A model generated the notes under the pieces. That model did no database searches and had not been told where the DNA came from. It saw only the letters and a program-made list of their open reading frames with translations. A program made the translations under genes and the position numbers. A stretch of DNA of 64,000 nt. It comes from Peronospora farinosa (Eukaryota; Oomycota; Peronosporomycetes; Peronosporales; Peronosporaceae). This document shows, piece after piece, positions 20,781 to 44,468 of this stretch (position 1 is the first letter of the stretch; each line of letters begins with the position of its first letter). The stretch is taken from positions 1 through 64,000 of the forward strand of contig CANTFK010000366.1 in the NCBI GenBank assembly GCA_947646735.1, given 5' to 3'.

Positions 20781-20789
20781 TCGATCTTG

Positions 20790-24358: not shown

Positions 24359-25402
24359 TGTAGTTGAGTGGGATTCGCAAAATTGCTGATGCGATCCCAA
24401 CTCTCCACTGGTGCCCGGACGACCGACTAACGGAGGGGGTACCCCGATTCCGTGTGTATAGCCTTCCTCACCTTGTGTACCCGTCGGTAGGGCGGGTTGC
24501 TCTCTTCTCGGTAGACTTGAGTCGATGTTGAGCTTGATTGTGTTAGGGATAGGTGGGGGGCGATCGAGTGGAATTCCTCACACGATCGCAGTTGTTCTTG
24601 GGGTGCTCTATTTGAGTCACCCTGATCTCTCTTGAGATCGCCTTGTCCAAAAATGTAGATACTTGATCCACTTGAGATACTTGATCCACTTGATATACTT
24701 GATCTTCTGACCACTTGAGCCGTCTCGCGATCTTGTGCCTTGTCCTTTTCTTGTTGTGCTGCGTCCAATCGCAGGGGGAGTTGTTGGTTGAGAATTCTTG
24801 TAATCCCTGTCCAAACAATCCAGGGATATCACTTGTGTCTAGGCGTAGCAGATGCTCTTGAGTCGTCGGGGGGCCAAAATTATCCCACCCGGAAGAGAAG
24901 CTTGCGTGTCTTAGAAGTAAAATCGAACTCTGTTTAATGTTACCCAATCACATACCAAAACCTATGAATCTGCCTATCTGTAGACTAGGATCTACTGCCA
25001 CGTGTTGACCTTTCGGAAAAATCAGGTCTCAATGCGTGGACCACATATATCGGACCGCAGTCGACGGATCGCTATGGCAGATCGCGGTCACGGATCGCTA
25101 TGGCAGATCGCGGTCACGGATCGCTATGGCAGATCGCGGTCACGGATCGCTATGGCAGATCGCGGTCACGGATAGCTATGACGGATCGCGGTGACGGATC
25201 TCTATGACGGATCGCGGTAACGGATCGCTATGACGGATCGCGGTGACGGATCGCGGTCGACGGATCGCGATGACGGATCGCGGTCGACGGATCGCGATGA
25301 CGGATCGCGGTTGACGGATCGCGGTCGATCTACAAGGTGTGGACCACATTTAATATTGGGCGATCCACACTTTGCGAAATATTGCTCCTTCGCTTCTCCA
25401 CA
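24359..25402 (-). repeat. 5' LTR of element N with tandem array
   Basis: 1,044 bp from TGTAGTTGAGTGG to CTTCTCCACA. It is longer than the 3' LTR because of a tandem array at about 25,060-25,330 built on CGGATCGCTATGGCAGATCG and CGGATCGCGATGACGG units. The array probably expanded after insertion, since the other LTR has only a few units (13,805-13,900). Confidence 0.9.
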
Positions 25403-25927
25403 ATGACTCGAAGCCATTCCACGTCGTATGTGACGCGAGCAATCTCGCTATAGGATGTGCCCTCATGCAATTTGATGACGAGGGTCGAGAGCGCGTCGTG
25501 AGATTTTCAATCACGACAGATGAAACCTGCCGAGAAACATTATCCGGTACACGACAAGGAACTTTTGGCTATGCGTTACGCGCTAATCAAGTTTAGAGTA
25601 TATTTTCTCGGCGAAAATGTGTTTTCTATCTACACAGATCACGCATCATTGCGTACCGCCGTCAAGAGTCCTCACTTGTCCCAGCGTATGACACGGTGGC
25701 TGTCATTTTTCGCCGAGTATAATTTTGTGGTGCATTACAAGCCTGGCAAGAATAAAATTCTCGCTGACGCGCTTTATCGTCGTCCTAATTACGATCCTCG
25801 GCGCGACATGGGTCATCAAACGGAGTATGTTGATGACGACGAAGATATCTGTGCGTGTTGTATTGACCTGGGGCTTAATGCGATGATTTCGACCCTCCGT
25901 GCTGCCGATCCGAACTCATATCGCTGA
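25403..25927 (+). pseudogene. Element A RNase H (right half)
   Basis: Element A resumes directly after N with the RNase H start PFHVVCDASNLAIGCALMQF. A frameshift near 25,515 leads to 25,520-25,927 with EKHYPVHDKELLAMRYALIK, YTDHASLRTAV and LADALYRRP. Catalytic Asp and Glu residues are present. The frame ends after DPNSYR; a broken segment leads on to integrase. Confidence 0.88.
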
Positions 25928-27045
25928 ATCCTACGCGAATGATTCCTTCTATGCAGGAATCATCAACTATCTCAGGGACCCGAGCGGAAAATTACTCGCG
26001 ATAGTTGACGAAACCAGCACGCGACAACATCAAGCGTTACGCGCTTGACGGACCGTTGCTGACGTAAACGATGGACGTCTTTGATTCCCCGCGTGTCGTC
26101 ATCCCTGCTGACGACGACCTTCCAGTCCGATTGGTTCATGAATTTCACGACAGCCCAGCTGGCGGACACCTGGGTCGCGAGAAGACGTTTGCGGCTATTT
26201 TTCGCGTATTTTTCTGGCCGCGAATGTATAAGTACATCCAGAAATGGGTACGCTTCTGTGAAACCTGTCAGCGTGTGAAGCCCGCGCCATCCTCACAAGC
26301 CTCATTGCGTCCGCTTCCGATTGCTACGGAAGCCTGGCGCTCGGTCAGCATGGATTTTACCTTTGGCCTTCCACCGGATGAACAGAAACGCACGGGCGTA
26401 TTGGTTCTAGTGGATCGATTCAGCAAAATGGTGCATTTTGCTTCGGTCTCCGCCAACATTACGGCGTAGACGGCAGCGAAGATATTCATTGATCTTATCT
26501 TCAGGCATCACAGCTTGCCAGAATCGATTGTTTCGGACCGTGACCCGCGCTTCACTTCGGCTTTCTGGGCCGAATTATTCCAGCTATTAGGCACGCGGTT
26601 GCTTATGTCTACGGCGGCCCATCCAGAGACGGATGGGCAAACGGAGCGTGTAAACATAGTGCTCGAAGATGTCTTGCGCAGTTATGCTACATCGTTCTCG
26701 TCATGGAGTTCATTTCTTCCGCTTGCAGAGTTTGCAATCAACAATGCTGTCCATGCGTCAACCGGGTTGAAGCCCTTTTTCGTCAACAATGCGAGGCATC
26801 CTCGCGTTCCGGCGCTACTTGCTCTCTCAGCTTCAGAGCACCCTGTCTCAAAGCTTGATGGGGGAGTATCTACGGATGGAATTGCGCCGAAACTATTGAT
26901 GATTGATTACGATGAGAATAAGGTTGCTGATGATGCACCTAATACTGGCAATTTGTGGCCAACGGCATATCGACTCCTGGCGCGATGCTTTCCATCGCGT
27001 CTCCCGTTGCTAATTTTGCCCCAAAAGAGAATACGTCGCCTGTAA
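25928..27045 (+). pseudogene. Element A integrase
   Basis: The zinc domain lies at 26,071-26,290 (HEFHDSPAGGHLGREKT, CETCQRVKP). The catalytic core has SMDFTFGLP and VLVDRFSKMVHFA (first Asp), VSDRDPRFTS (second Asp) and ETDGQTERVNIVLEDVLRSY (Glu). A TAG at 26,467 and a frameshift near 26,940-27,000 break the frame. 25,928-26,070 is decayed. Confidence 0.87.
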
Positions 27046-28434
27046 GTTCGGCTGCAGTAACCGAATTTCTGCTATTACGACAAGGAATCACGCGTTTTGT
27101 GCGTGATGCATTACAAGAGGCAGTCGACCAGCAAAAGGAGAATGTAGACAGAAGAGGTCGAAAGAATATGTTGATATTTCGAGAAGGTGACAGAGTATTG
27201 TTATCAATAAGTGGATTACCGAACACCTCCGTGACGAATTTGGGCGCTAATCAGTTAGCGCCAAGATATATTGGCCCATTTCGGGTTGTTAAGGTGCATG
27301 GTGACGCTTACACGCTAGACATACATACATGCATCTATGTGTTTGCACCCGACGTTCTACTTCGGGCGCCTCAAGGGTTACCTGCCGGCGGATCTCCCTT
27401 CGAATATTCTCCGCTCTTCTGTGCCGGCTCAAAATACGACATCCCTTGACGACGACGCTAACGACGACTGGGACCAAGTCCTGACCGAACGCGTGCAGAC
27501 TCGATCTGCTGGGGTCCTCCGAACGCAGTCGTCTCAAGCTGACGTAGACGCTCAACCAGTACCAGCTGCTCACGTCGAGTCCGCTCAGCAGCCTCAGTCG
27601 CAGCATCCGCACGGTCTTGAGCTCTCTCAGCCATCTCGCGAGCATCAAGTAGGGCATTCTTCGACTCCTCGGCTTCAGCGCGAAGTAGACGCAGCCCATC
27701 ATTCGACTGTACAGGCGCCCGATTGCGAGAATCGGCGTTCATCGCCAGAGGTCTTCCGTCGTGATGTTCCTCCTCCCTTAGTTAATGCATCGGGTGCGCG
27801 ACGCTGGATTGTCGACCGAATTGTCGATCACGAGGATCACAAGCCCCAGGCGCCGAGTAATAACTCGGCGCCCATGAAGAAGCGTGTCGAGAAACATTAC
27901 AGGGTTCGCTGGTTGGGATATTCCCCGGCGGACAATACATGGGAGCCATCGAGTACGCTGTCCCAAGATGTCCCGGACGTGGTCGAGGACTATGAGTCCC
28001 GTAGAAAGATGGTGATCGCGACCGACGCTGCTGGTTCCATCCCCGATCTCGCGAGCCGTAATGCTCGCGAGCAACGAAACCACGACGACCTCCCGAGCGA
28101 CTCCGAGACCGAGACCTATTACGAGGCTCGGGAGCATACGGATGATACGGTTGACGACCTCGGCTACGTGAATGCCGTCGGCGATCGTAAGGACGCGCTC
28201 TCACTAGCCGTAGCTCGGACACCTGGAGCTTCGAAAGGCTTCTCTCATAACGGGAAATCCATGGACGAATATGATCGGGCATGCCTCGCGCACACACCAA
28301 GTCGTCCCATTCCTGCCGGACCGGTCGAGATCTGCCCACGTTGCACGTTGGACATCCCTCACGAACGTGGACGTAACAAAGGTGATACTCGTCACACGTC
28401 ATACGAAAGATGCGCCGGCGCAGGTCGCCAATAG
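26955..28434 (+). pseudogene. Element A integrase tail, spacer, chromodomain
   Basis: 26,955-27,449 holds the integrase C-terminus (REGDRVLLSISGLPNT, PRYIGPFRVVKVHGDAYTLD). After a frame change, 27,337-28,434 starts with HPTFYFGRLKGYLP and continues through a Gln/His/Ser/Pro-rich spacer. A chromodomain follows at about 27,800-27,990: RRWIVDRIVDHED, HYRVRWLGYSPADNTWEPSS. A 130-residue charged tail follows. The spacer and chromodomain are antisense to another open frame (27,458-28,800, minus). Confidence 0.85.
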
Positions 28435-28800
28435 CGTGTCTATCACGCGTTCCCTCGCGACCGTCTAACCAGGACGTGAAGGACGTTCCTTCACGTCGGC
28501 TCGCGTTTCAGCGCCTGATGAAGGCACACCAAGACCTCTGCAACGCATCGTCGGTATATGCGTTGTTCGTCGCCTTGCCTCTCACTGTACGGTATCGCGT
28601 GAAAAGGCCCTTCATGACCTCCAGTGGCTCGGGTTCGACAGCACCTTCAAGACCATACAAGCGCCACGGTTTCAAGTCCCCATCCATGACCTGCGGCGCC
28701 TGCTCTCTACGGATTGTCGCTTGGTGTTCCCAGTTCTGGTTGTCAGAGACATTGTTTCGTGGACGCCTAGGGTCCATGCTGCTCAGTTAAGTCTATCTGA
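27458..28800 (-). pseudogene. Antisense ORF of element A
   Basis: Three minus-strand frames run end to end opposite the 3' part of pol: 28,508-28,777, 27,782-28,402 and 27,458-27,742. The second carries a zinc-type motif (CDEYHLCYVHVREGCPTC) and an Arg/Ser-rich region (RNRSRSRSRSGGRRG). The third is a clear coiled coil (RLLRAEAEESKNALLDAREM then ERAQDRADAATEAAERTRRE). Element B has the same order (N-terminal domain, C...CPxC, low complexity, coiled coil) in its antisense frame. The sense protein opposite the coiled coil is low-complexity, suggesting the antisense reading is the constrained one there. Broken by frameshifts; function unknown. Confidence 0.5.
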
Positions 28801-28874
28801 GCAGGTTCGGAGTTACGCCGTTGGTCGAGAAGAAACTTCTGCGACTCGCGCTTACGTTGAGGTAAGCGCAACTT

Positions 28875-28888
28875 AAAGAGGGGGGTGA
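28875..28888 (+). other. Polypurine tract of element A
   Basis: AAAGAGGGGGGTGA sits immediately before the 3' LTR, the place and composition of a plus-strand primer. Element B has the same GAGGGGGGTGA at the matching place (29,874 onward, minus strand). Confidence 0.85.
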
Positions 28889-29207
28889 TGTAATGGGGGC
28901 AACCTATTACATGAATAGTTATAGGATTAATACATAATTACATAAGTAGGCATAGGGCAGTATCCGATTAGCGGATACTGCGCGTCATTTTATTATTGGT
29001 TTATTATTGGGGTGCCAGACTTAATAATTAGCCAATAATATATTGACTTCCATATTGAGTGGTTCCCATGAGCTAGAAAACATATTCGTACTTACTTCGA
29101 ATTAAAACAAAACAAAACTAAAAGAGAGTTATATTTACGAGTTAATTAAGAGCGCTTCCTCAACGCCCTTTTAGTGTTAGAAGGTAACGGGTCCTTAGCC
29201 CGTTACA
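28889..29207 (+). repeat. 3' LTR of element A
   Basis: 319-bp partner of 10,546-10,864, starting TGTAATGGGGGCAACC and ending CCCGTTACA. It differs by about 15-17 substitutions or small indels by eye. It abuts the remnant of a B-family LTR directly at 29,208. Confidence 0.93.
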
Positions 29208-29413: not shown

Positions 29414-29873
29414 TGTAATGGGCCACCCTCCGACTATACTGATTACAGTATAGTCTACTTTCACTGATTACAGTGAAAGCAGGTGCTCTAATTACCTCTC
29501 TTACACAAGAGGCAGAGGAAGCTTTACTTCTAAACGATACGCTTAGAAGTAGAGGAAAAGAAAACTGTATTTAATATTGTTAACTATCTAATAAAACTAA
29601 TCTGTTATAACCTATGTTAACTATATTAAACTACAACTATGTATGTTGACAACTTGCCCTCCACTCATTGCGCGCGTCCATCGGTCATTGGTTAGCGCGT
29701 CGGTTGATATGATGGCCCATATCAACCAATTAGAGGGCATCTCCAACTTCAAGGAGATCTAGGGACAATATTGTAAGAAAAGGTAATATTGTCAAATATT
29801 ATTAGTTATAATAATATTTTTATTGACACTTCATATAAGTGTCAATATTATGTAACGGGCTCACCCCGTTACA
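29414..29873 (-). repeat. 3' LTR of element B
   Basis: 460 bp, TGTAATGGGCCACCC...CCCGTTACA on the plus strand. Contains consecutive hairpins at 29,432-29,455 (10-bp arms, loop ATTA) and 29,458-29,479 (9-bp arms, loop ATTA), plus others built on GGTTGATATG and GACAATATT. Confidence 0.95.
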
Positions 29874-29956
29874 TCACCCCCCTCAACCAACAGTCACATT
29901 AGTGACTATGGGAAAGGAGCACTTGTTGAATTTACTTTCATTCAACAATTTTACGC

Positions 29957-31631
29957 TATGAAAAAGTCAATGCGCGTCGCTGCTAAGGCAGCTAAGAGCT
30001 CGGCTGCACTCCTGTGTGCAGCCGCTACTGAGGCTTCACAGAGACACTAATGTGTCTGCTGGATGTCAACATCAGCCTGCAACGCCTGTTGCAGGTTCAC
30101 GTAGCGCTTCGCCACGTGAAGATGTTGACCCAGAGTTAGTCGTTGACTACTCTGGTGAGTCGGATGACGCATCCGGCTCAAAGTCACCCGTTCCACTCCC
30201 GGGCTCTTCCCGGGATGATACCTCGTCGTCGGATGTTACGAAGAGGGATCGTGGTACATTGAGTGAATTAATGTACCGTGAAATGTTCGGGTCGTCTGAT
30301 GAATCAGACGACTCTCCAAACGAGTCGAAGGATAGTGACTCGGGTGGGGACCGTAAGGGTGATGTCAGTGCTTCTACTGACATCAATGCTCATAGTGTCG
30401 GTACTTCTGTTGACACCACGCAGGAGGCTTTAGACCGCAACGTATTGCGTCTTGCTCCTGATCGCAAGCCGTGGATGCTACCCAAGCATCTGCTTGATCA
30501 TTGGTCTGGAAAGACCAACGAACGGTTCCTCATACCGTTGTTTGATGCGTCAAAGCTTCATGGCCTTGACGCCAGTGCGAAGAACTTTCGCACTGAGAAC
30601 GATTATTACATCGATGTGTTCCTTGAACATCGATGGTATGGCCCACACAAGAAGCGTGAGGCTGACGCGTTCCTCCAATCTTGGAACGCGTTTATCACCA
30701 ACGTTTTAAACGTTGGGAAAAAGGCTTGGTTTCAAAGACTTTTTGCTAGCCGCAATAAGTTTGAAAACGAAGCACTTCCGGTGCATGCTATCGTTTGCAC
30801 CGGTTATCTAGAGAGGCAGGCCTGTTATGCCTCTCTTGGGGCGACCCATGCCCGGGGTGCCTGAGCACCTCGTCAAGAGCGCCTAAGGAGGCGTACCTCC
30901 TTACTGAGCCCTGGTGGAGGGCTCGCATCTCTTCTGAAATGCGTGAAGGGATTGCTACTTTGCAATCCCTTTACGAGCGTGCTGGGCGCTCGTTTTCCGA
31001 TGGTCCTTCACCATCGGGTGCCCCTTGTCGTACTGTTCGACAAGGCCGGGAACGTCGGCCATCAGTTGGGCCCGAGGTTCCCAGCTATCCGCTGAAGGCG
31101 AATAGCCACGCCACCGGACGAGATAACTCGTCCGACGTCCCTTCACCTCGCGGTGCTTTAGTAAACGTTCCGCGAGGAAGCGCTTTCCACCATGGGAGTC
31201 CACCAGCGGATGCGGTGGTGGAGGGAAAACCCTGTACGATTCTTTCATCGGACTTGGCTGCTGAGTTAGACGGGTTTGCCCGTGTAGCTCGTGAGCTACG
31301 TTGTGATGTTGATCACGAACGGGATAAGCGTCACCGCTTAGAGGACATTGTGCGACAGCTTGGGTTTGACCATGAGAAGTCTCGGTCAGACAATGCTGTC
31401 GCACTATTGGAGAATGAACGGCGACATCATTCTCTAAGTAACGAGCTGGCGACAGCTCGTCAGGCGATCGTCCAATATCATGGAACGATCTCATCTCAAC
31501 ACGACCAGGTATCGAATCTGGTTCGTAACAACACGAATCTGAAGGGGATTCTTGAGAGTAATGGCTATCTTCGTCGTTCGAAAAAGCCGCTTACTGAACG
31601 TACGGACGAAGACGTCCCACGTAAAACGTAG
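29957..31631 (+). CDS. Antisense ORF of element B (two frames)
   Basis: Plus-strand coding opposite the 3' end of pol. An ATG at 29,957 opens a short frame; after a frame change, 30,016-30,864 encodes an acidic Ser-rich region (SSDESDDSPNESKDSDSGGD) and a compact domain (KPWMLPKHLLDHWSGKTNER, READAFLQSWNAFITNVLN). It ends near a Cys cluster (VCTGYLERQACYASLG). 30,795-31,631 continues in another frame with GDPCPGCLS and a long coiled coil (RDKRHRLEDIVRQLGFDHEK, LLENERRHHSLSNELATARQ). Most of 29,957-30,950 has no open pol frame on the other strand, so this is not just a pol shadow. Two frame changes mean this copy may not make a full protein. No family recognised. Confidence 0.55.
30955..31494 (-). 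pseudogene. Element B chromodomain segment
   Basis: Minus-strand frame with a spacer followed by a chromodomain: KRFLAERLLKHREVKGRRTS then YLVRWRGYSPSADSWEPRAQ. It lies in a different frame from the integrase tail, which stops at 31,591. Antisense to the coiled-coil part of the plus-strand frame. Confidence 0.75.
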
Positions 31632-32700
31632 GATGCGTACGCATCCCGCGTGGCAACTCGATCGTGTATGCGTTGTCTAGGAGGCGCAGTACACGAAACG
31701 GGCCGATGTACTTGGGCAACAGTTTATTGCTTCCCACGTCAGTCACTACATGTTTAGGTAGGTTTACTGTTGACAGTAAAACTAAATCACCTTCAATAAA
31801 TGTCTGAGCATTTGCCCTTCCATTATTGTCTGCGTTTCGCTTTTGCTTATCCACCGCTTCCGCGATGGAATCTTGCACGAAACGGACTACCGCTTCACGA
31901 GTCAGCAGGAAATCCTCAGCTGACTCGTTGCTTTTGGCTGCAGTGCATTGTGAGTGCACTACAGAGATATCGGTTACTAATTCAGCGAGAACATTACTGT
32001 TATCACTTGTGATACCTCGAACGATGCTAATATCTTCAGCATCGTTATCAGTAAGAGCGTCATCGCTCTTACTTTCTTCCTCTTCACCGAAGTCGAATGG
32101 TCCTACTTCGGTTACTTTCGCGTCGACCATAACGTCGTCGCGTGATGAGCAAGAGCCAGATTAGTTCTCGCTCAAGCGAGTTCCTCCCCCCCTTGAATTA
32201 GAGTCACCTTCTACTAAGGTGGGGACACGTGGATGGCGAAGGCCATTCACGTAGAACGGTGTATGCGTCGTAGACGCATGCACGGAGTTGTTGATGGCGA
32301 ATTCGACCATCGACAAGAACTCACTCCAACTCGTAAACGAGTGGACGTACCCTCGAAGAATCTCTTCGAGGACGCGATTGGTGCGTTCAGTCTGACCATC
32401 AGTTTCTGGATGGTCAGAAGTAGACATTGTGAGCCGTGTTCCAAGTGTTTGAAACACGGAACGCCACAACTCAGCCGTGAACCGGGGGTCCCTATCGGAC
32501 ACAAGTTAACGAGGTAGACCGTGCAATCGAAAGATTGTTTCGATAAACACTCGAGCACAGACCTCTGCTGTGATCGACTCAGGTACAGCAACAAGATGTA
32601 CCATTTTGCTGAACCTGTCGACAAACACGGGAATACCATTATTCCCGTGAGCGTCTTTGGGAATCCAAAGACGAAGTCCATTGATACGGACTCCCAGCAC
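31591..32700 (-). pseudogene. Element B integrase core and tail
   Basis: 32,506-32,700 and 32,161-32,502 hold the catalytic core in two frames: VFVDRFSKMVHLVAVPES (Asp), SDRDPRFTAELWRSVF (Asp), ETDGQTERTNRVLEEILRGY (Glu). 31,591-32,130 holds the C-terminus (EGDLVLLSTVNLPKHVV, PKYIGPFRVLRLLDNAYTIE, HPTFYVGRLRPYV). Two frame breaks near 32,140 and 32,505. Confidence 0.88.
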
Positions 32701-33518
32701 TATGCCAGAACGGGTAGAGGCTGCAATGGTGCACGGAGTGATGGACTAGGCTTCACTCGTTGACACACCTCGCAAGCACGCACGTACTTGCGCTCAAACT
32801 TATACTGGCGTGGCCAGTAAAAGTCGCGACTGACCGTGAGGTAAGTCTTCTCACGGCCGCGATGCCCACTTATTGGTGCATCGTGACATTTAAACATGAT
32901 CCGTAACCTGAGATCATGTTGTGGCGGTACAACGACACGAGGCGTGTCGTTGTTGACGGCTGTGTAGTACAGTAAGCCGTTCCGCTGGGTGTATCGATCG
33001 AGAGAAGATCGATACATGGCAGGCAAGCGCTTCTTAGCTTGCGTGGATGGGTCCTTGAGATACTCCATCAGGCGTACAAGATCATTATCTTGTGCGCATG
33101 CCCTTCTAATGTCGTCGAGCTTACTCGACGACAAGACGCTGGTACTCAGCGTGGCGACAGTGGTGTTGACATCACTGTCGGATTGCACAGTCGGCTCTAG
33201 GTCAGGCCGACGTGAAAGAGCATCGGCGACGACGTTAAGTCGTACCGGTTTATACTTCACGGAGAAGTTGTACTCCGCGAAGAACGACAACCATCTCGCC
33301 ATTTGTTGCGAGAGGTGTGGACTATTTACAGCCGTGCGTAGTGACGCATGGTCTGTATATACAATGAACGGTCTATCTCCTAAGAGATAGACGCGAAACT
33401 TAGCCAGTGCATACTTCATGGCAAGGAGTTCCTTGTCATGCACTTGATAGTTGCGCTCGGCCGGTTGCAGCTGACGCGATTGATAACAGACGACACGCTC
33501 TGACGCCGTCTGTATCAT
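32700..33518 (-). pseudogene. Element B RNase H and integrase zinc domain
   Basis: RNase H: YQVHDKELLAMKYALAKF, VYTDHASLRTAVNSPHLSQQ, VVADALSRRP. Integrase zinc domain: KCHDAPISGHRGREKTYLTV then CEVCQRVKPSPS. The frame overlaps the RT frame end at 33,436-33,518, so a single frameshift separates them. Confidence 0.9.
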
Positions 33519-35367
33519 ATTGCATCAGTGCACAGCCGATTGCAAAATCGCTGGCGTCACAGACCACATGAAATGGTCTGTCTTGATCGGCAATCGCCAA
33601 TACTGGCGATTGCATCAAGCTTTGCTTGATACGTTCAAAGGAACGCTGACAATCAGCGTTCCAGTTCCACTTTACATTTTTCTTGAGTAAACAAGAAAGA
33701 TGTACTGTCATTTCGGCGTAATTGCGCGAGTACTTGTGCAAATACGCCGCTAGCCCAAGGAACTTCCTTAGTCCCTTGACATCGACTGGCACTGCCCAGT
33801 CGGTGATCGCCTTGATCTTCTCTGGATCAGGGCGTACGCCGTTCTTTCCGACGATGCACCCAAGAAGTGGTATTTCGCTAGCTGCGAATATACACTTCTT
33901 GAGGTTGGCGTATAACTTATGCTCGCGCATAAGTGTAAGAACCTTACGGACGTGGAGTCTATGGACTTCCACGTCTGTTTTCCCGTCCATAGCTCGACTA
34001 TGGACGAACACATCATCGAAGTAACTCGGTGCGAATTCGCGCACCGGTCTCAATAGATGTGAAACACATCTATTGAATGTGGCTGGTGCATTACGGAGCC
34101 CTTGCGGCATCACCAACCATTCCCAGAGCGTACCACTGGGAGTGCTCACTGCTGTGTACGGGATGTCCCGTTCACGCATTAGGATCTGATAGAAACCATC
34201 CATCAGATCCATGGACGAAAAGATGGTACTCTTAGACATACCATCTATGATTACGTCCTTTCTCGGTATCGGCGTTTGTGCCGGTATCGTTGCAGCGTTC
34301 AACTTATTGAACGCGTGCACTATCCGCCACCCTCCTGTGGCCTTGCGCACACAGAAGGTCGGAGAGTTGTGAGGTGAAGTTGACTCCCTCACATGGCCCG
34401 CTGCTAGGCGATTGGCAAAGAACTTGTCGATCGCCTCGACCTGTTCCCGAGGCAGCAACCACTGCTTCATGACACAATAATTTGTGCCAGGAACAAGGTC
34501 GATCTCGTGTCGAGTACATTTTTCCTTAGGTAACTCGCACGGAACGGATTCAGGGAATACATCCTTGAATTCGACCAAATCCTTGTACAAAGGATTTGAC
34601 TTCAGCGACTCCCAGGATTGCGATGTATATCGCTCAATCCGAGTCTTCTCATCAAGGACACTTTCGTCCATTGATGAGCTGCTGAGAACCCGTTCGTTCT
34701 CGGCAAAAACTGTTGCTGACCGAATGTCAGTCATGTACTCGTCCTCTGCGACGAGCACACAGATCTGCTTGACTTTGCCACTACGCAGATCACGCAAGAA
34801 CCTTTTAGGTTCTAGCGTAGGCAACTGAGTTATCTCCGAAGTTAACTTCGGAGGCGCGATCAGATCAAGCGTATAAGCGCCTACGTTTGATCCGTCATTA
34901 ACCAAGAAGTTCAACGTCTCGGTTACTTCCTGGGGACTTATTCCCTCAGGGCACTGGGGACTTATTCCCTCAGTGATTATTTCCTGGGGACTTATTCCCG
35001 CAGGCTCGATGAAACTTGTTCCATCGACTTCCTCTAGCTGTGGTGGCGCAACCACAGCGAGATCCTCTACGATCAACTCTCCAGTTGATCTAGGATTACC
35101 GTGTTGCCGCTTCTGGACAACCGGTTTACTCTTCGGTGAATGCTGCCCTCTAGGCGAGCATTCATGTCCCGGTCCACTCGACTTATTCGGGTGGTGGACC
35201 TTCGGCGCTGCCTGTGCTTGTGCACAGCCGCCGGCAGCTTGCTCCACAGCGTGACTGTCTATCACGCTGAGTTTTTGTGCAGTCGTACTAACGACCGAAC
35301 CACAAGTGAGGCCATCACACTCACTCGTAGTACATTCACACGCTTGTGAACGCTCCAAGACGTTCAT
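33436..35367 (-). pseudogene. Element B linker and reverse transcriptase
   Basis: 643-codon frame. After a Pro/Glu-rich linker (including the repeated ISPQE) comes a complete RT: IDLVPGTNYCVMKQWLLPRE, VRKATGGWRIVHAFNKLNAA, SSMDLMDGFYQILMRERDIP, the catalytic APSYFDDVFVHSRA, and LGCIVGKNGVRPDPEKIKAI. The end enters RNase H (PFHVVCDASDFAIGCALMQY). All RT catalytic Asp residues are present. The upstream join to protease is broken by the 194-bp triplication. Confidence 0.93.
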
Positions 35368-35776
35368 CAGATGGCCATCTGATGAACGTGTGTCTTCGGC
35401 GCTGCCTGTGCTTGTGCACAGCCGCCGGCAGCTTGCTCCACAGCGTGACTGTCTATCACGCTGAGTTTTTGTGCAGTCGTACTAACGACCGAACCACAAG
35501 TGAGGCCATCACACTCACTCGTAGTACATTCACACGCTTGTGAACGCTCCAAGACGTTCATCAGATGGCCATCTGATGAACGTGTGTCTTCGGCGCTGCC
35601 TGTGCTTGTGCACAGCCGCCGGCAGCTTGCTCCACAGCGTGACTGTCTATCACGCTGAGTTTTTGTGCAGTCGTACTAACGACCGAACCACAAGTGAGGC
35701 CATCACACTCACTCGTAGTACATTCACACGCTTGTGAACGCTCCAAGACGTTCATCAGATGGCCATCTGATGAACA
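35201..35776. repeat. 194-bp unit in three tandem copies inside pol
   Basis: Copies start at 35,201, 35,395 and 35,589 (TTCGGCGCTGCCTGTGCTTG). By translation they look identical. 194 is not a multiple of three, so extra copies shift the frame and cut protease from RT; stops occur at the copy joins. Either a recent slippage event or an assembly artefact. Confidence 0.93.
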
Positions 35777-35815
35777 AGCGACAGGCATCTTCACGGTTCG
35801 ATGCTGCCAGCTGAC

Positions 35816-36193
35816 TTATGGCTCGTACCTTCTGAGCCATGGTAATCCTAGGATGACATCAAATTTGTCATCCAGATCAAGTACGATGAAATCATCATCG
35901 TACTTTTTGCCTTCAAGCGTGTAGTGAATTCCCACTACACGTTTCTTTAGTGTCACGGATGCACCAGTTGCAAGGCGCACCGTCATCCTCGTTGGAGGGG
36001 TCTCGCGCTTAACATATTTGAGCCTACGATCATCTAACGATTGGCGTCGAACAAAGTTGTTCGAAGCCCCACAATCAACTAGGGCGCGAAGTGACATGTT
36101 CTTTGTCACTTCGATCTTCAATGTGATGAGGGATACCTCATCACTGGAAGCGGCAACACACAGTGACTGTGTGTTGGGAGCAACCTTCGTCAA
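35816..36193 (-). pseudogene. Element B aspartic protease
   Basis: Retroviral-type protease: ALVDCGASNNFVRRQSLDD is the active site, with Cys in place of the usual Ser/Thr of D-S/T-G. The partner motif is FDVILGLPWLRRYEP. The DCGA variant is worth noting, since element A has DSGA at the same place. The frame stops just after the domain because of the downstream triplication. Confidence 0.85.
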
Positions 36194-36243
36194 GAGTCCC
36201 GCGAACTCTCTTGACGTTGCTGGATCAGTAGGTCGCTCCGCCC

Positions 36244-37428
36244 CTACTGAACCCGACCGTTTTTTGATGGTCCACCACGTTGTTGCGATTTCGCAGCAAC
36301 GTGGGACCCACGTCTCTGGCCCTTCTTGGCAGACGGTCGATCGTCACTCCCAGTGTTACGCGACACTGGGCGTGGGGCAATACACTCATAAGCGTAGTGG
36401 CCCAACTTCTGACAGCGATTGCACTTTTGCAATCGCTTGTACCCTGGAGAGCGAGGTTGCTCGCTCTCTACATAGGAGAGGTCCATTGGTTCTGGACCTC
36501 CGCCCTCCTGTCGTCTCGGTGGACGATAGGATCCCGAGTGGACGTGAGCCTGTTGTAGGCTAAAGTCCTCCTGTTCCGCTGCAGAGATCACTTGATCCAG
36601 CGATTCTAGTTCCAAGCGGAACAGGTGGGTCTTGACAGGACCATCTGTCAGACCCTTGATGAACACAGTAACCTGCGTGTGTTCATCGATTGGGTTCAGT
36701 ACGATACAGCTAACGAGGTATCGTAAGTGTTGGGCGTAAGCGTGTATATCACGCTTACCCTGTTTCAAATCCAGAAGCTCAGCCCGAGCCCTGAATTCGG
36801 CGCGAGGCGGTTCAAACGTGTGTTTGAGCCGTGCCTTGAAGACGTCATACGTTGGGAAAACGTATGGGTCGTGCAGTTTGAGCCCTAAGGCCCAAGATTT
36901 GGCACGTCCTGCCAAGTTCGACATGGCGAACTTGACCTTCATCGCATCGTCATCGATGCGGCGAGCCTCAATGGCATCGTCGAGCTCGACGAACCATCTC
37001 AACAAGGAGTCGCTTTCGACTGCCTTGTACTTGGAGACATCAATCTTCAAGGACTCGGGTCGACGTATACACGTCGACCCGGCAGCAACAGCACTAGCCT
37101 GCTGTTGTCTCAACAGTTCAGACTGTTGAGCACCCTGCTGCATCAACAAGTCAGCTTGTTGAGCGCCTTGTTCTCTCAACAGTTCAACCTGTTGAGAACC
37201 TTGCTCCTCTAGCAAGGTGAGTTTCTTTACAACTTCGTCAAGTTTATGTTGTATGAACTTGGCGATGGTTGCATGTTGGTCGTCTCCGCTAAGAGAGAGC
37301 AACATGGCACCAACGGCAGGGTTGCCGATGGTTTCAGCCATACGCTGAACCGCATTCCATTCGAGGTCACTCAAATGGCGGAAATCATCACGCGTTGCGT
37401 GATGACGTTCATCACCCGCTGATTCCAT
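36244..37428 (-). CDS. Element B gag polyprotein
   Basis: Intact frame from the ATG at 37,428 (an upstream GTG at 37,461 lies in the primer site) to a stop at 36,244, about 394 aa. N-terminal helix region, then four imperfect 10-residue repeats of the type LREQGAQQAD near codons 75-115 (37,100-37,220). Capsid follows (DSLLRWFVELDDAIEARRID, AMSNLAGRAKSWALGLKLHD, FEPPRAEFRARAELLDLKQG). It ends with a CCHC knuckle (CNRCQKLGHYAYEC) and a basic tail. This is the only complete gag among the three elements. Confidence 0.9.
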   Translation of the reverse strand: MESAGDERHHATRDDFRHLSDLEWNAVQRMAETIGNPAVGAMLLSLSGDDQHATIAKFIQHKLDEVVKKLTLLEEQGSQQVELLREQGAQQADLLMQQGAQQSELLRQQQASAVAAGSTCIRRPESLKIDVSKYKAVESDSLLRWFVELDDAIEARRIDDDAMKVKFAMSNLAGRAKSWALGLKLHDPYVFPTYDVFKARLKHTFEPPRAEFRARAELLDLKQGKRDIHAYAQHLRYLVSCIVLNPIDEHTQVTVFIKGLTDGPVKTHLFRLELESLDQVISAAEQEDFSLQQAHVHSGSYRPPRRQEGGGPEPMDLSYVESEQPRSPGYKRLQKCNRCQKLGHYAYECIAPRPVSRNTGSDDRPSAKKGQRRGSHVAAKSQQRGGPSKNGRVQ

Positions 37429-37475
37429 AGCGGATGGTGCGGTGGTCGCTGAAGGGACCACGAAGTGCTACCAGG

Positions 37476-37935
37476 TGTAATGGGGCACCCTCCGACTATA
37501 CTGATTACAGTATAGTCTACTTTCACTGATTACAGTGAAAGCAGGTGCTCTAATTACCTCTCTTACACAAGAGGCAGAGGAAGCTTTACTTCTAAACGAT
37601 ACGCTTAGAAGTAGAGGAAAAGAAAACTGTATTTAATATTGTTAACTATCTAATAAAACTAATCTGTTATAACCTATGTTAACTATATCAAACTACAACT
37701 ATGTATGTTGACAACTTGCCCTCCACTCATTGCGCGCGTCCATCGGTCATTGGTCAGCGCGTTGGTTGATATGATGGCCCATATCAACCAATGAGAGGGC
37801 ATCTCCAACTTCAAGGAGATCTAGGGACAATATTATAAGAAAAGGTAATATTGTCAAATATTATTAGTTATAATAATATTTTTATTGACACTTCATATAA
37901 GTGTCAATATTATGTGACGGGCTCACCCCGTTACA
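37476..37935 (-). repeat. 5' LTR of element B
   Basis: 460 bp matching 29,414-29,873 with about seven differences. Followed on the minus strand, after two bases, by the primer site TGGTAGCACTTCGTGGTCC (37,455-37,473). Confidence 0.95.
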
Positions 37936-38343: not shown

Positions 38344-40463
38344 ATGGGCAAAATCATCGAGTCGATCCTGAGCGTATATTCGGCGCGTGCGGACGATGCG
38401 TCTGCACGTCCCACAATTTCCTTTGAGTTTTTTCCCGCCAAGACGAATGCCGGCATATTTAATCTACTAACGCGCGTGGAAGAGATGGGATTAACGCTAC
38501 AGCCGACGTTTGTGACACTCACATGGCGTTCCGCTTTCAAAGACGAGACGCTGTGGTTACGCATCGGTGCTCATATTCAGAATGAATTTCAAATGGACAT
38601 ACTGCTGCATTTGACGTGCCATTTACCCACGGAACAGCTCAAACGTATCCTCAAGAACGCGCGTGCCGCCGGCATCCGCAACATTCTCGCACTTCGAGGA
38701 GATCCGCCCATTGGATCCGAGCGTTGGGCGCCTGTGGAGGGCGGAATGAGCAATGCGAAGGACCTTATTAAGCTCATTCGAGAAGAGCACGGAGATTATT
38801 TTTGTATTGCTTGTGCGGGTTATGCAGAAGTACACACCGAGTCGTGGAATCATCCGGACCTGCCGCCGTCAAACGAGGCGCGTGCTCTAGATCTGCAACG
38901 ACTGAAAGCCAAACAAGATGCAGGAGCAGACTTTATTATCACTCAGTTTTTCTTTGATGTGGACAATATGATCCAGTGGATCGCTGATTGCAAAGACGCA
39001 GGGATTACCATCCCCATCTTGCCCGGCTATCTACCAATTCAGAACTACAGTTCCTTCTGCAAGTTCACGAGCTGGTGCAAGACACGAGTCCCGGAACAGG
39101 TGCTAACGGATTTAAATGCGATTAAAAATGACGACGCGGCTGTTCGTTACTATGGCACGCAGCTTGCAGTGAAGACGTGTCAGCGTCTGCTGGCTGCTGG
39201 AGTGCACTCGCTGCATTTCTACACGATGAATCTGGCTGCTACCGTGACGCAGGTGTTGGACGATCTGCAACTGCTGCCTGCGCGCAACCAGCGCGAGCTG
39301 CCGTGGCAGTCAACGTTGCATCGCTTGGCCGTCGAGGGTGAGCAGGTGCGCCCCATCTTTTGGTCTAACCGCCAGGCCAGCTATATTGCGCGTACTGCTG
39401 CGTGGGACGAGTTTCCTAACGGACGCTGGGGAGATCGCACAAGCCCGGCTTATGGTGAGCTTTCGGAGTATTATCTAGCCTTCAAGCGACCGAAGGTCCA
39501 GCGTGCTAAACTGTGGGGAACTCCACAGACAGAAGAGGATGTTTGGAACGTGTTCGTTCGTTTCATTGATGGCCAGGTGAAGCAACTGCCGTGGTGCGAG
39601 CAGGCTCTGTCCCTCGAGAGCGCTGCCATCAGCGAAAACTTGCAGTGGCTCAATTCCAACGGCTTCTTAACAATCAACAGTCAGCCGCGAGTGAACGGTG
39701 CTCCTTCGAGCGACAAGTCTGTCGGTTGGGGTGGTGACGACGGTGTTGTGTTCCAAAAAGCTTACGTGGAATTTTTCGTTGCCCCTGAAAAGATGGCACA
39801 TCTCGTGAAAGTCATGCGGCGAGACTACCCGCAGCTGTCGTTCCACGCCCTCAACCGCCGGGGCGATGAGCACCGCAATACTCCGCTGCACAGCGTCACG
39901 GCCGTCACGTGGGGCGTCTTCCCCGGCATCGAAATTGTGCAGCCCACGGTCGTGGACGCGGACTCTTTCGCAGCCTGGAAGGATGAGGCATTTGAGTTGT
40001 GGCAGACCCAGTGGGCATCGGCCTACCCTGAGGGTTCGCGTTCGCGTGAAGTCGTCCAACACATCTACGACACGTACTTCCTTGTCAACATTGTCGACAA
40101 TGACTATGCCAACGGTGAGTTTTGTGCTTTGACAAATGCTACTGATTCTCGAATGCAATTGGTTGTGCTAACAATGTCTCTATCATGCTACATGATACAG
40201 ATGAGTCTGACATCTTTAGCATCTTCACGCGGATTATAACGGAGGCAATGAATAAGGATCAGCTACGCGCGCGTGTGCTGGAGCTGGCAACTCGACGGGA
40301 AAAGATGTTCGACACACTAGCGTCGTTTCAGACGTTGCAGGACGAACAAAATGGAGAGCTGCGCGCTACACACTCGGAGCTCGCGAGTGTGCGCAGCGAG
40401 AATCTCCAGCTAAAGGAGAAGATCCGCCAGCTGCAGGCCCGACTCGCTCTCACGTCACTGTAG
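38344..40463 (+). CDS. MTHFR: Methylenetetrahydrofolate reductase
   Basis: Reduces 5,10-methylene-THF to 5-methyl-THF in cytosolic one-carbon metabolism, feeding methionine synthesis. The N-terminal catalytic barrel (about 20-310) shows SFEFFPAKT (catalytic Glu), PTFVTLTWR, LLHLTCH, ILALRGDPP, GADFIITQFFFD and PGYLPI. The C-terminal half (about 320-590) is the eukaryote-type regulatory domain (NGRWGDRTSPAYGELSEYY, WGVFPGIEIVQPT, YFLVNIVDNDY). I model one 86-bp intron, 40,115-40,200 (GTGAGT...ACAG, branch site GCTAAC), giving join(38344..40114,40201..40463) and 677 aa. Without splicing the frame runs into unrelated residues and stops at 40,239. Exon 2 adds a 60-residue coiled-coil tail (ELASVRSENLQLKEKIRQLQ) not usual for the family. 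ATG at 38,344 is the first in frame. Confidence 0.95.
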
Positions 40464-41276
40464 AGACGAACCGAACCAGCCCCTAGAGACCAGACCCCTC
40501 GCAAATAGAAAGGAGCAATCGCAAACAAACGGGACGGATGGCCTGAGTGGCTGCATCTGTGTGCCTTCCCTTCCAATACATGGATTTCGATTGACCCGAT
40601 ATTGGCAATGTATTGGGCTCTGTCGAGCTAAGCTATCTGAGTAAATGATAGAGTAAATAAAATAGTGGTGCTTTTGCGCCTTGCAGACGCAAATTGACTA
40701 CTATTGATACTTCAAAACTTGTCCTGGCAGCGATTGCTCGTCAGTTTTGCATTTTTGTTGGTTGTGCAAATTAATGACTCAATTGACCACTCTTCTGTTT
40801 AGAAATATATTATTACTCCAGGGGAGGCGTTATGATCACCTCCTACCTTTCGTTTTGTGATGGATGTTGAACTTTTTAATCTACTGCTTGTAAATCTACT
40901 GCTTCTACTGTAGATAGATCTACAGGCGTAATGGTTAGCAAAAAGGTGAATGATAAATAACTACTATGGTTTAAATCAAATAATAGTAATACTCCTGTCG
41001 TCACTCTATTGTACTATTTAAAAAAAGGCTGAAATGATTCTTAATAGTGCTACCCCATCTTGCACTAGAGTAATACAATAGCGAATGTAGTATTGCAATC
41101 AAGCAATACCTTCACTTTATATAACCAAATGTATTTGACATTGTATACATAGTATAGTACCTTTCATATTTAATTATACAATGTGATCCATTCAAGTTGG
41201 TTTATTTTTCCCATTCGTGTCTTCCCCCTCAAAAGACCACTCCAGTACTATCAGTAAGTAGCCCAACAAATTCACC
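40464..41276. promoter_or_regulatory. Intergenic region, ThrRS promoter
   Basis: AT-rich, no gene. Near its right end TTATTTTTCCCATTCGTGTC (41,202-41,221) resembles an oomycete initiator, about 60 bases before the ATG. A tRNA-like stretch at 40,535-40,610 was considered and rejected. Confidence 0.4.
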
Positions 41277-43514
41277 ATGAGCATTGAACCCGCACGCGTG
41301 CAAACGCGTCTTACGAAAGAAAGTGGTCCAAAGGTCACAGGATCCGCCAGTGAAACAAAGATCGGTGGTTCTTTCACGTTGACACCCAATCCGCCCTTCC
41401 TCACAAGACGAATGGCCGTATACGATCGTATTATGACTGAACAAAAGCAGCAGCTCCAAGAACTAGCAGCGAAGCAAACAATAATCAAGATTACGCTTCC
41501 TGATGGCACGATAAAGGAGGGAATTGCCTGGCAGACAAAACCTTTGGATGTAGCACTTGAGATCTCACAAGGATTGGCCGATCAGGTCGTTGTAGCTCGT
41601 GTCACTTATCGTGGAAAACCGGACGACCCCTTTAGTGTCACAGCTGCAGACGTGGACGGTAATGAAGCCAGTGATAAAGCCAGTGAAGACACGTGCTGTG
41701 GTGCTGTTGCTGACTCGTCTGAGCTTTGGGATGTCTTCCGTCCCCTTATTGGTGACTGTAGATTGGAACTGCTTAAGTTTGACGATAAAGAAGGTCGGAT
41801 GGTCTTTTGGCATTCGAGTGCTCATATATTAGGTGAAAGTATTGAGACGCTTAAAGGCGCTCATTTGACTATTGGTCCTCCTGTAGAGGGAGGCTTTTAC
41901 TACGATTCGTACATGGGCACTGAAACGATCTTGGAAAGTGATCTGAGTGTCATTGAAAAGGCCTGTCAAAAGGTCGTGAAGGACAAGCAAAGCTTTGAAC
42001 GTGTCGTGCTGACCAAGGAAGAGGCACTCGAGATGTTTGCCGACAATGTGTTTAAGACGCAGATCATTTCTACCAAGATCCCGGATGGAGGCAAGACCAC
42101 GGCTTACCGCTGCGGCCCACTCATTGACTTGTGTCGCGGTCCGCACGTTCCCCATACGGGAAAGATCAAAGCTTTGGCCGTCACGCGCTCCTCGAGTTCA
42201 TACTGGCTGGGAAAGACCACTAACGACACTTTGCAGCGTGTCTACGGTATCTCGTTCCCGGATAAGAGTAAAATGAAAGAGTGGAAGCACTTTCAGGCTG
42301 AGGCTGCGAAGCGTGACCACCGTCGTCTCGGTGTGAGCGAGGAGCTTTTTTTCTTCCACTCGTTGAGCCCTGGCAGTGGCTTCTGGCTGCCGCATGGTTC
42401 TGCTATCTACTTTAAGCTGCTCAAGTTTATTCGGGAGCAATATCGCGAGCGCGGATACACTGAAATCATCACGCCTAACATTTTCAACATGGAGTTGTGG
42501 AACATTTCGGGTCACGCCCAGCACTATAAGGATAACATGTTTGTGTTTGATGTGGAGGGACAGGAGTACGCACTGAAACCTATGAACTGCCCAGCTGCTT
42601 CGCTGATGTTCGACTTCCGTCAGCGGTCGTACCGTGAGCTGCCCATCCGTTTGGCAGACTGTGGCGTGCTACACCGTAACGAACTGAGTGGTGCCCTAAC
42701 GGGCCTCACGCGTGTGCGTCGCTTTCAGCAGGATGATGCTCACATTTTTTGTCGCGACGATCAGATCAAGAAGGAAGTGCTAGATTTTCTCACTTTTATG
42801 AAGTACGTATATGACGTCTTTGGCATTAAGTTCAATCTGGAGCTCTCGACGCGTCCCGAGAAGGCTATGGGCGAATTAGAACAGTGGGAGCGAGCTGAAA
42901 AGCAGCTTGCTGAGGCTCTTAACGAGTTTGTTGGCGCTGGCAAGTGGGTGGTCAACCCGGGCGATGGTGCTTTCTATGGCCCTAAGATCGACATCATGAT
43001 CACAGACGCGCTAAAGCGTCAGCACCAGTGTGCTACGGTGCAGCTTGACTTCCAGCTGCCCATCCGTTTCAATCTGAAATACCGTACGGACGACGCAGAC
43101 AACTTCAAGCGTCCGGTGATCATTCATCGTGCCATCTACGGATCGCTGGAGCGATTTGTTGCTGTCCTGGTAGAACACTACGCCGGCAAGTTCCCGTTCT
43201 GGCTATCACCGCGCCAGATCCTTGTCGTCACGGTGGGCGCTGCGTTCATTGAGTACGGCTACGAGGTCAAGGACGCAATGTTCCGCGCCGGATTCGATGT
43301 AGATATCGATGACACGGGCAAGACGCTGAACAAGAAGATCCGTGAGGGTCAGATGGCCCACTACAACTTTATTTTGGTGGTAGGCGCACACGAAAAGGAG
43401 GCACGCTCCGTTAATATTCGTACCCGTGACAACAAAGTGACGGGCACCAAGACGTTGGAGGAGGCTATTGCCATGTTTAAGGATCTGGAGATGACCAAGG
43501 CGAGTGAGGAATAA
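41277..43514 (+). CDS. TARS: Threonyl-tRNA synthetase
   Basis: Charges tRNA-Thr for translation. Single exon, 745 aa, a normal length. Domains in order: an approximately 65-residue N-terminal extension; a TGS domain (about 67-115, IIKITLPDGTIKEGIAW); the editing/SAD domain with HSSAHILGES (about 179) and YRCGPLIDLCRGPHV (about 280); the class II core with ALKPMNCPAASLMF, motif 2 CGVLHRNELSGALTGLTRVR, and motif 3 RPVIIHRAIYGSLERF; and the anticodon-binding domain from ILVVTVGAAF to the end. All HxxxH editing residues and the zinc-site Cys in MNCPA are present. The N-terminus shows no clear mitochondrial presequence, so a cytosolic enzyme is most likely. An alternative upstream start cannot be excluded, but ATG 41,277 has a good context (CACCATGAG). 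Confidence 0.97.
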   Translation: MSIEPARVQTRLTKESGPKVTGSASETKIGGSFTLTPNPPFLTRRMAVYDRIMTEQKQQLQELAAKQTIIKITLPDGTIKEGIAWQTKPLDVALEISQGLADQVVVARVTYRGKPDDPFSVTAADVDGNEASDKASEDTCCGAVADSSELWDVFRPLIGDCRLELLKFDDKEGRMVFWHSSAHILGESIETLKGAHLTIGPPVEGGFYYDSYMGTETILESDLSVIEKACQKVVKDKQSFERVVLTKEEALEMFADNVFKTQIISTKIPDGGKTTAYRCGPLIDLCRGPHVPHTGKIKALAVTRSSSSYWLGKTTNDTLQRVYGISFPDKSKMKEWKHFQAEAAKRDHRRLGVSEELFFFHSLSPGSGFWLPHGSAIYFKLLKFIREQYRERGYTEIITPNIFNMELWNISGHAQHYKDNMFVFDVEGQEYALKPMNCPAASLMFDFRQRSYRELPIRLADCGVLHRNELSGALTGLTRVRRFQQDDAHIFCRDDQIKKEVLDFLTFMKYVYDVFGIKFNLELSTRPEKAMGELEQWERAEKQLAEALNEFVGAGKWVVNPGDGAFYGPKIDIMITDALKRQHQCATVQLDFQLPIRFNLKYRTDDADNFKRPVIIHRAIYGSLERFVAVLVEHYAGKFPFWLSPRQILVVTVGAAFIEYGYEVKDAMFRAGFDVDIDDTGKTLNKKIREGQMAHYNFILVVGAHEKEARSVNIRTRDNKVTGTKTLEEAIAMFKDLEMTKASEE

Positions 43515-44468
43515 GCAGTGGAGGGAGTTACTCCCATGTATGGTGTTCACTCTTCTTTGGTAGCCACTTTTCGGCTATAGCGGGTATTTTTCATTTGTAA
43601 CTTAGAGCTAAAGAGCTTGTTACAGTTGTGTCACCGTAATCAAATGTGAAATTTGCCGATTAAAATTTACTTTAGGTAATTCTAATTTTGTTTGCAAGTG
43701 TAGAACATTATTTTGAGGTAATTTAAATAACGCACATATCCTATAAAGTCCTCTATTTTTATAATCTATATCTAGATAAATGTATCTTGTAAGGTAAGTA
43801 GTTCCGTGTTGGTGGCAATAACATTGTAGCGTTGCGAACCATGCTCTCGAGTATCGACGTGGACTGTAGTACTCAATACAAACTCGGCGTTTATAATCGT
43901 CTAATGGGCGCTTACCAAAGCCGAGAATAAAGTTCAGTCATAGCGTAATTATGATCAATTGACTGACGTGAGACAACATAAGTCGAAAAACAAAACGAAA
44001 CTATCCACTACTTCAGTTGACTTGCAAGAATCTTTTGCTTGCTGTCAGACACTCGCACAGCAAACACGTCTCGAGCTCAGAAAATCAAAAATGCCACGGT
44101 TGTGACTATAGCTAAACGAGATAATTACATCTTGACAAAAGATAACGTACGTTGGCTCTATTACTTTGGTAAGAACAAACTGACCGACTTCCTCTAACTT
44201 CAACTTGTTATCTTCAAGCAATGTTCGCCCGTTTATGATCATTCTACTACATTCGACCAATAAGCACGAGTTACGGCTGCTTGTCACTCGTGGCACGACT
44301 GGCACAACCAGTCGGTTGCAGTAGCAAAGGCGATTATCGACACGCAATTTGCAGACGTCACTTGATTGGTCCATGACTTTTGCCAGTCAAATTTATAGTC
44401 CCGTCCTAACTCTCTCCCAAATCATTTTGTATTTTACGCCCTAGGTCCTACAACCTCTGCAAATTATT
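43515..44468. other. Intergenic region between ThrRS and the fusion gene
   Basis: AT-rich, no gene seen. The last 60 bases hold the probable start site of the next gene. Confidence 0.5.
44421..44437 (+). promoter_or_regulatory. Oomycete-type initiator of the APSK fusion gene
   Basis: ATCATTTTGTATTTTAC matches the oomycete initiator/flanking consensus TCATTYYNCAWTTT at most positions, 32-48 bases before the ATG at 44,469. The spacing fits a short 5' leader. Confidence 0.55.

Follow-up and report, generated by a model that had tools for sequence, protein, structure and literature searches.

Short perfect hairpins throughout a Ty3/Gypsy retrotransposon of the oomycete Peronospora farinosa, with equal folding on both strands

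The window analysed here is a stretch of 64,000 nucleotides from Peronospora farinosa (assembly GCA_947646735.1, contig CANTFK010000366.1, positions 1 to 64,000 of the forward strand), and its main subject is element B, a Ty3/Gypsy long terminal repeat (LTR) retrotransposon with a chromodomain that occupies 29,414-37,935 on the minus strand. The two LTRs of B measure 460 bp each and are 98.5% identical; a 5 bp target duplication, ACATA, flanks the element on both sides, and the insertion site is an older related LTR of about 83% identity. A profile scan against Pfam gave the domain order gag, reverse transcriptase (RT), RNase H and integrase, as expected of Gypsy elements, with frames that are interrupted in the window copy and with the short integrase-core frames at 32,161-32,745 lying outside the scan. 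At least 40 copies of B are present in the genome. The features of B are listed below with their profile-scan values and, for coding parts, with hairpin counts (arms of at least 8 bases) before and after codon shuffling.

29,414-37,935, minus strand: element B, defined by its LTR pair, Pfam domains, and flanks with the ACATA duplication
37,476-37,935, minus strand: 5' LTR of B, from comparison of the LTR pair; contains hairpins
29,414-29,873, minus strand: 3' LTR of B; about 8 hairpins with arms of at least 8 within 460 bp
36,244-37,461, minus strand: gag open reading frame (ORF), Retrotrans_gag 1.2e-13; 17 hairpins, codon-shuffled 0.58
33,436-35,367, minus strand: RT ORF, RVT_1 2.6e-26; 17 hairpins, codon-shuffled 0.54
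32,700-33,518, minus strand: RNase H and zinc-binding part of integrase, RT_RNaseH 2.9e-23, Integrase_H2C2 4.2e-19
30,955-32,160, minus strand: C-terminal SH3-like part of integrase and chromodomain, in two stop-to-stop frames, SH3_Tf2-1 1.7e-14, Chromo 1.4e-13
34,050-34,076, no strand assigned: hairpin in RT with arm 12 and loop 3, named in the initial annotation, coordinates checked
33,110-33,133, no strand assigned: hairpin with arm 10 and loop 4, the loop inverted in the window copy, from comparison of B copies
32,929-32,953, no strand assigned: hairpin with arm 11 and loop 3, the loop inverted in copies L006 and L059, from comparison of B copies

Hairpins were counted as perfect inverted repeats with arms of at least 8 bases and loops of 3-15, the expectation being the mean of 20 dinucleotide shuffles. 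The whole of B holds 95 of them against 1.3 expected and the interior between the LTRs 80 against 1.4, an excess of 57- to 73-fold that amounts to one perfect hairpin per approximately 90 bases; arms of at least 10 occur 31 times against 0.2 expected. Loops of 0-12 bases are favoured, with a peak at 4, and most hairpins span 20-28 nt. When loops of up to 30 are admitted, hairpins with arms of at least 8 cover 29% of the interior, and arms of at least 6 alone cover 38%. Synonymous-codon permutation (200 per coding piece, in five pieces of B) reduces the 49 hairpins seen in coding sequence to 1.7 in sum, an excess of about 29-fold: besides gag and the pro-RT piece, given above, the RNaseH-integrase piece has 6 against 0.22, the integrase end 4 against 0.15 and the chromodomain piece 5 against 0.21, where the pro-RT and RNaseH-integrase pieces share 89 bases. 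Host sequence at 38,344-47,519 holds 1 hairpin against 2.0 and at 50,000-64,000 1 against 2.6, while positions 1-10,400 hold 4 against 1.6. The initial annotation had described B as saturated with short perfect hairpins in LTRs, gag and pol alike, with nothing similar in the host genes, and the counts bear this out; the density in B is above that of codon-shuffled versions and of host genes. It had also named 13 individual hairpins, of which 12 are perfect at the positions given for them, although two of these have arms of 10 rather than 9; the thirteenth is real but was placed one base off, lying at 32,990-33,016 with arm 10 and loop 7.

By eye, the listed arms in B differ from one another, save for those in the LTR copies, those in a 194-bp triplication and a few similar ones. 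This 194-bp unit, which contains a perfect palindrome of 13-15 bp, stands three times in tandem at 100% identity in the window copy (35,200-35,775) and occurs once in each of the seven further copies compared. Against 16 of the at least 120 homologues listed, arms and the sequence outside them have similar amino-acid identity, with no clear extra protein change in arms. The rarest codon register is the one that pairs third positions with each other (14 of 75), as if synonymous sites did the adjusting. A negative correlation between arm and loop length, considered as a sign of a fixed span, was dropped since, by reasoning, chance extension of stems inward yields about the same slope.

The hairpin trait follows one group of Gypsy elements in this genome. 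All eight B loci compared, the window copy among them, carry 9-12 hairpins per kb. The 20 other Gypsy loci, which are the best 20 among the RT matches listed (L039-L058; L038 falls within L039), carry 1.0-4.2 per kb and group by similarity into family A, which includes an element in the window, family C, about 70% identical to A, and the single locus L047; B is 65-71% identical to all three. Families A and C have 2-4 hairpins per kb. The 29 loci taken as non-LTR on the length of their RVT_1 match (L009-L037) have 0-0.8 per kb, near chance; scans of three of them gave Exo_endo_phos next to RVT_1 in every case, twice below the Pfam cut-off. Five copia loci are likewise near chance, with 3 hairpins in 7.5 kb. 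Elements A and N, which lie at lower coordinates than B in the window, fall on the two sides of this division:

10,543-13,100, plus strand: 5' part of element A (LTR 10,543-10,864); 9 hairpins against 0.7
25,400-29,207, plus strand: 3' part of element A (LTR 28,886-29,207), with chromodomain; 13 hairpins against 0.7
13,139-25,402, minus strand: element N, between the two parts of A, with LTR-like ends 87% identical; 2 hairpins against 2.1

With 12.3 kb at chance level, N is a negative control inside the window. Its retroelement protease, RNase H and integrase zinc-binding domains are accompanied by a second RNase H (RVT_3), as in the oomycete elements Chronos and Archon (PMC5348765). That nothing similar occurs in host genes, as had been proposed, holds true; the trait is nonetheless shared to a lesser degree by A, C and L047 and is not a property of B alone. 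Copy L050 of family A is open over the 6 kb examined and holds 24 hairpins therein, so hairpins and coding coexist. L047 (C203:167500-173500) is a Gypsy copy with broken frames and just six perfect hairpins with arms of at least 8, and its stems look like once-perfect stems broken by mutation.

The folding-energy difference, measured against dinucleotide shuffles in 350-base windows, is 29.2% for the sense and 28.8% for the antisense strand of B. It reaches 32% in copy L002 and is 18% in the old copy L047; sense and antisense values are 7.2 and 10.3% for A and 8.4 and 10.2% for C, against -1.6% for N and 3.0% for host sequence. Windows of 150 bases agree, with about -2% for two long interspersed nuclear elements (LINEs) and 1.5% for copia, and z is below -2 in 90% of 50 such windows of B. 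In a survey of viral genomes (PMC7642675), values of about 15% for SARS-CoV-2, 7.5-10.7% for hepatitis C virus and 23.4% for the highest virus are given; B at 29% exceeds all of these, in a comparison of equal fragment length for which another shuffling program was used and the percentage is possibly defined differently.

The pairing is predominantly of Watson-Crick type. Perfect runs of nine pairs occur in 77 windows of B against 0.67 expected (overlapping windows counted), and runs with one inner mismatch number 25 against 1.08 for sense G-U, 43 against 1.25 for A-C and 34 against 4.0 for others; at distinct inner stem positions in three pieces of B the counts are 156 Watson-Crick, 11 sense G-U, 17 A-C and 19 other. 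On either strand the G-U share of predicted pairs is 6%, half the 12% of shuffles. The G+C content of arms is 51.2% against 52.1% in the rest, and at third positions 53.7% against 53.8%. A strand preference in the type of stem mismatch was sought and rejected: on the plus strand G-T exceeds A-C by 9 to 1 with four flanking pairs and stands at 28 to 30 with three, and the agreed columns of eight copies give 5 sense G-U and 8 A-C. Folding of the sense RNA alone does not explain B, because G-U is depleted, arms are not G+C-rich and the antisense strand folds equally; selection on RNA folding energy alone would be expected to tolerate G-U and to favour G+C, neither of which is seen. Strand symmetry and the lack of G-U or G+C preference point instead to copying of one arm from the other or to a need for structure on both strands.

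Variation among copies was examined in two alignments of B, eight copies over 2.9 kb and 23 copies over 1.4 kb (five partial copies of 28 were dropped), which overlap in 1.4 kb and eight copies and are not independent. Each site was labelled by its highest pairing probability in any copy, a variable column counting as paired if pairing occurs anywhere, which works against the result. Shared variants, present in at least two insertions, fall on 18 of 2251 paired and 17 of 649 unpaired sites in the eight-copy set, and on 50 of 1196 and 18 of 204 in the 23-copy set, a two- to threefold avoidance of predicted paired sites. No such avoidance is seen in private variants, which occur in a single copy (111 of 2251 and 35 of 649; 197 of 1196 and 21 of 204), and the two-by-two contrast of shared and private with paired and unpaired has p values of 0.006 and 0.0009, respectively. 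Shared variants lie at third codon positions in 42 of 68 and 25 of 35 cases, as expected while the proteins are under selection; private ones are even across codon positions, as expected after insertion. In perfect hairpins with arms of at least 7, shared variable columns account for 9.2% of positions in loops, 3.8% in arms and 4.7% elsewhere, and in the eight-copy set for 4.1, 0.8 and 0.9%. In family A, shared variants are rarer in arms (4 of 561 columns) than outside (62 of 2824).

The density, the strand symmetry, the Watson-Crick character and the distribution over element families are shown directly, as are, for B, the avoidance of predicted paired sites by variants of the replicating lineage and the occasional inversion of loops. 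The explanation favoured here, at a probability of roughly 0.45, is a genome-scale ordered, strand-symmetric structure kept by selection on the single-stranded forms of replication; it is placed first, ahead of a mutational origin, because of the strand symmetry combined with the evidence against arm copying set out below. The whole sequence of the B group, LTRs and genes alike, would have been shaped into dense short local hairpins, with selection acting on the genomic RNA and its minus-strand cDNA in the replication cycle, so that each strand would fold locally on itself once made. Likely benefits would be compaction, a protected cDNA, or less base pairing with small RNAs or with transcripts complementary to the element, and individual stems would be mostly free to move in evolution. 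The folding of B seems to be maintained only while the element copies itself. The fuller version, in which a lineage of LTR retrotransposons has been selected for short-range self-complementarity on both strands, RNA and minus-strand cDNA both being chains of hairpins during replication, is somewhat more tentative. That selection is at work, rather than a lower copying error at paired bases, is our inference, as is the step that it would protect.

Several observations weigh against this explanation. Arms vary no less than sequence outside hairpins (shared variants in 19 of 496 arm against 35 of 752 outside columns, and 7 of 839 against 16 of 1771, p about 1), which is why the probability was set at 0.45 and not 0.5; the contrast between paired and unpaired sites thus stems from loops and other unpaired sites. 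It could be that the rest of the sequence is structured too, or that loops have a higher mutation rate. Part of the contrast in the 23-copy set also comes from private variants, whose frequency is somewhat higher at paired sites (p 0.03). Families A and C lack the difference between paired and unpaired sites (p 0.3-1), and in family C the share of columns with shared variants is lower in loops (2 of 257) than outside (87 of 3375). No compensated pairs occur among B copies (0 of 255 in 23 copies, 0 of 435 in eight), and between families the 22 of 493 are in no excess over slid controls (14-24). Arms are, as noted above, not enriched in G+C, a lower error at paired bases in RNA or cDNA synthesis could give the same pattern of variants without selection, and the support comes from sequence analysis of one genome. 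The initial suggestion of selection for a folded RNA genome fares unevenly: shared variants do avoid paired sites and the folding excess is large, but G-U depletion and antisense folding do not fit folding of the sense RNA alone, and the arms are as variable as sequence beyond the hairpins.

The next explanation in order of survival is a mutational ratchet without function, in which a strand folds back during reverse transcription and copies its own arm by quasipalindrome correction or template switching, near-perfect repeats being perfected faster than they are broken. It would account for stems of perfect Watson-Crick pairs on both strands with no bias to G-U, for arms without G+C preference and for short loops peaking at 4, and such events have been described in yeast genes (PMC8604942) and in RNA genes (PMC8794818). 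Exact loop inversions between copies are also seen. The loop at 33,110-33,133 reads TAAG in 14 of 23 copies, TAAA in 6, CTTA in the window copy, TTTA in L074 and CTAA in L006, the changes being two exact inversions and one inversion with an additional change; that at 32,929-32,953 is AGG in 23 of 25 copies and CCT in L006 and L059, two copies with 13 differences over 1400 sites. L040, of family C, has the inverted AGA where the loop otherwise reads TCT, and a loop TT of three copies is AA in L007. Among ungapped substitution clusters in six alignments, templated ones number 2 of 21 in eight B copies (control 0.02), 3 of 39 in 28 B copies (0.11) and 1 of 76 in C (0.15), the first two B events being common to both B alignments, against 0 of 44 in A and 0 of 5 and 0 of 2 in two LINE alignments. 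Hairpin-mediated strand switching is real but rare; the inversions may predate or follow insertion, only that of L006 and L059 being shared.

All templated clusters are loop inversions, as at quasipalindrome hotspots where the spacer is inverted, and in the six alignments no ungapped cluster was found that creates or repairs an arm. A correction should, by reasoning, transfer a mutation to the opposite arm in about half of cases, and compensated pairs in B number zero. A neutral balance at the coverage seen would by estimate need a hairpin-making rate comparable with that of substitutions, for which same-carrier neighbours in B are too few: the 68 shared variable columns include no more than two cases, a pair separated by four bases and a loop inversion (A has 10 and C 17 such neighbours, none templated save one C loop). 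Comparison between families also gives no sign of arm copying. In 57 hairpins, some of which are variants of one hairpin in different copies (117 gapped matches, which repeat over copies, were excluded), sites differ in 21% of arm, 30% of loop and 29% of background positions. The 36 that lose at least two pairs in the other family differ equally on both arms (86 and 92 of 314), with no one-arm excess in family-specific hairpins (p 0.36), and a left-versus-right arm test for the direction of templated copying gave no signal. Between A and C (about 72% identity over 4.25 kb), 8 hairpins with arms of at least 7 are co-located, of 32 in A and 30 in C and with 0.5 expected; 62 of their 69 pairs are identical, 1 is compensated and 6 are lost or wobble, and a looser alignment adds two co-located hairpins with two and one compensated pairs. 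A minority of stems thus look old and strictly kept, most having apparently been replaced by ordinary-looking substitutions. Few pair changes, no compensation in B, no arm copying and no arm bias argue against copying as the present driver, and the ratchet is considered unlikely; of the hairpin-templated correction originally proposed, the loop inversions and the symmetric, Watson-Crick-only pairing stand, and its expected traces in the arms are missing.

Less probable again is selection restricted to sense-strand folding of the genomic RNA, for packaging or evasion of RNA sensing, as in the classical genome-scale ordered RNA structure (GORS) of viruses. The very high folding-energy difference, the turnover of stem positions between families and the sense-strand loops of B, which are A-rich (0.318) and C-poor (0.193), would all agree with it, but antisense folding is about equal to sense folding in B and a little stronger in A and C, the G-U share of predicted pairs is half that of shuffles, and A-C mismatches in stems are at least as many as sense G-U in both counts. 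Slightly more doubtful still is an interplay with small-RNA silencing, in which hairpins would hide both strands from small RNAs or be processed themselves. Most hairpins have a span close to the size of small RNAs, targeting of both strands would lead to strand symmetry, and in maize more small RNAs map to the hairpins predicted in LTR elements (PMC10760457). Against this, the non-LTR-labelled and copia loci of the same genome show no excess, although they too should be exposed to silencing, and an arm of 8-10 bp is short for Dicer. Chance, base composition, codon usage or an assembly artefact, in whose support no point was found, can be dismissed almost completely given the excess over both kinds of shuffle and the density in all eight B loci of 4 kb.

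Among described systems, B resembles the GORS of RNA viruses, for which consecutive local stem-loops by the hundreds across coding sequence, a large folding-energy difference and stems mostly unconserved between relatives are reported. A folding excess over the whole length is present in B and its stem positions are mostly unconserved, the co-located ones being a minority, if above expectation. B differs in being an integrated LTR retrotransposon and not the genome of a positive-strand RNA virus, and in its equal strands and G-U depletion; pairing of an RNA type, taken by us to mean tolerance of G-U and preference for the sense strand, was not found. Short inverted repeats with short spacers and loop inversions are shared with sites of quasipalindrome correction and short-range template switching, unlike which B displays no homogenisation or multinucleotide changes of arms and an excess confined to one retroelement group. 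Short perfect palindromes also occur in LTR retrotransposons of the maize Ty1/copia group, which we take to be Sirevirus. These (CACCGGACNNNGTCCGGTG; PMC10760457) have one common motif, unlike B, whose arms vary from hairpin to hairpin through gag, pol and LTRs of Gypsy elements. The genomic RNA of yeast Ty3 (PMC11381356) is that of a Ty3/Gypsy element with local structure and with palindromes considered for dimerisation; these are six in the 5' region, against hairpins throughout the whole of B.

A search of open-access literature by title or start of abstract, with subscription papers outside it, found no description of hairpin-saturated retrotransposons. If true, the fuller version of the favoured explanation would mean that in a lineage of LTR retrotransposons genome-scale ordered structure extends over RNA and DNA jointly, of which we know of no described example. 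Coding sequence can evidently bear this hairpin load with amino-acid conservation in arms no lower than elsewhere. One genome with strongly, moderately and unstructured retroelement families, and with B copies that died at different times, is a natural test bed both for the role of such structure and for the origin and persistence of perfect hairpins.

No relatives of B were found among the viral contigs and genome contigs searched. A B-like element of 82% amino-acid identity (protein P0002, probably contig C266) seems to be present in the same genome. The at least 120 homologues listed include proteins of B-like elements at 74-87% identity, with Peronospora matthiolae and Pythium oligandrum as two of the named sources. 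Over 65% of the RT frame, protein P0006, named from Pythium oligandrum, matches at 84% identity, and the Phytophthora proteins in this list have only 52-69%; a transfer between oomycetes that are only distantly related is possible. On the plus strand at 29,962-31,631, between pol and the 3' LTR, two open frames of 300 and 288 codons overlap each other and run antisense to the 3' part of B; the profile scan gave no Pfam match for the first frame or for the started parts of both. Host genes near B encode a fusion of APS kinase, ATP sulfurylase and pyrophosphatase, and MTHFR. Two adjacent long perfect inverted repeats, with arms of 31 and 30, lie in hairpin-poor surroundings at 48,797-48,882 and 48,899-48,967, and are perhaps a small transposon or a small-RNA locus.

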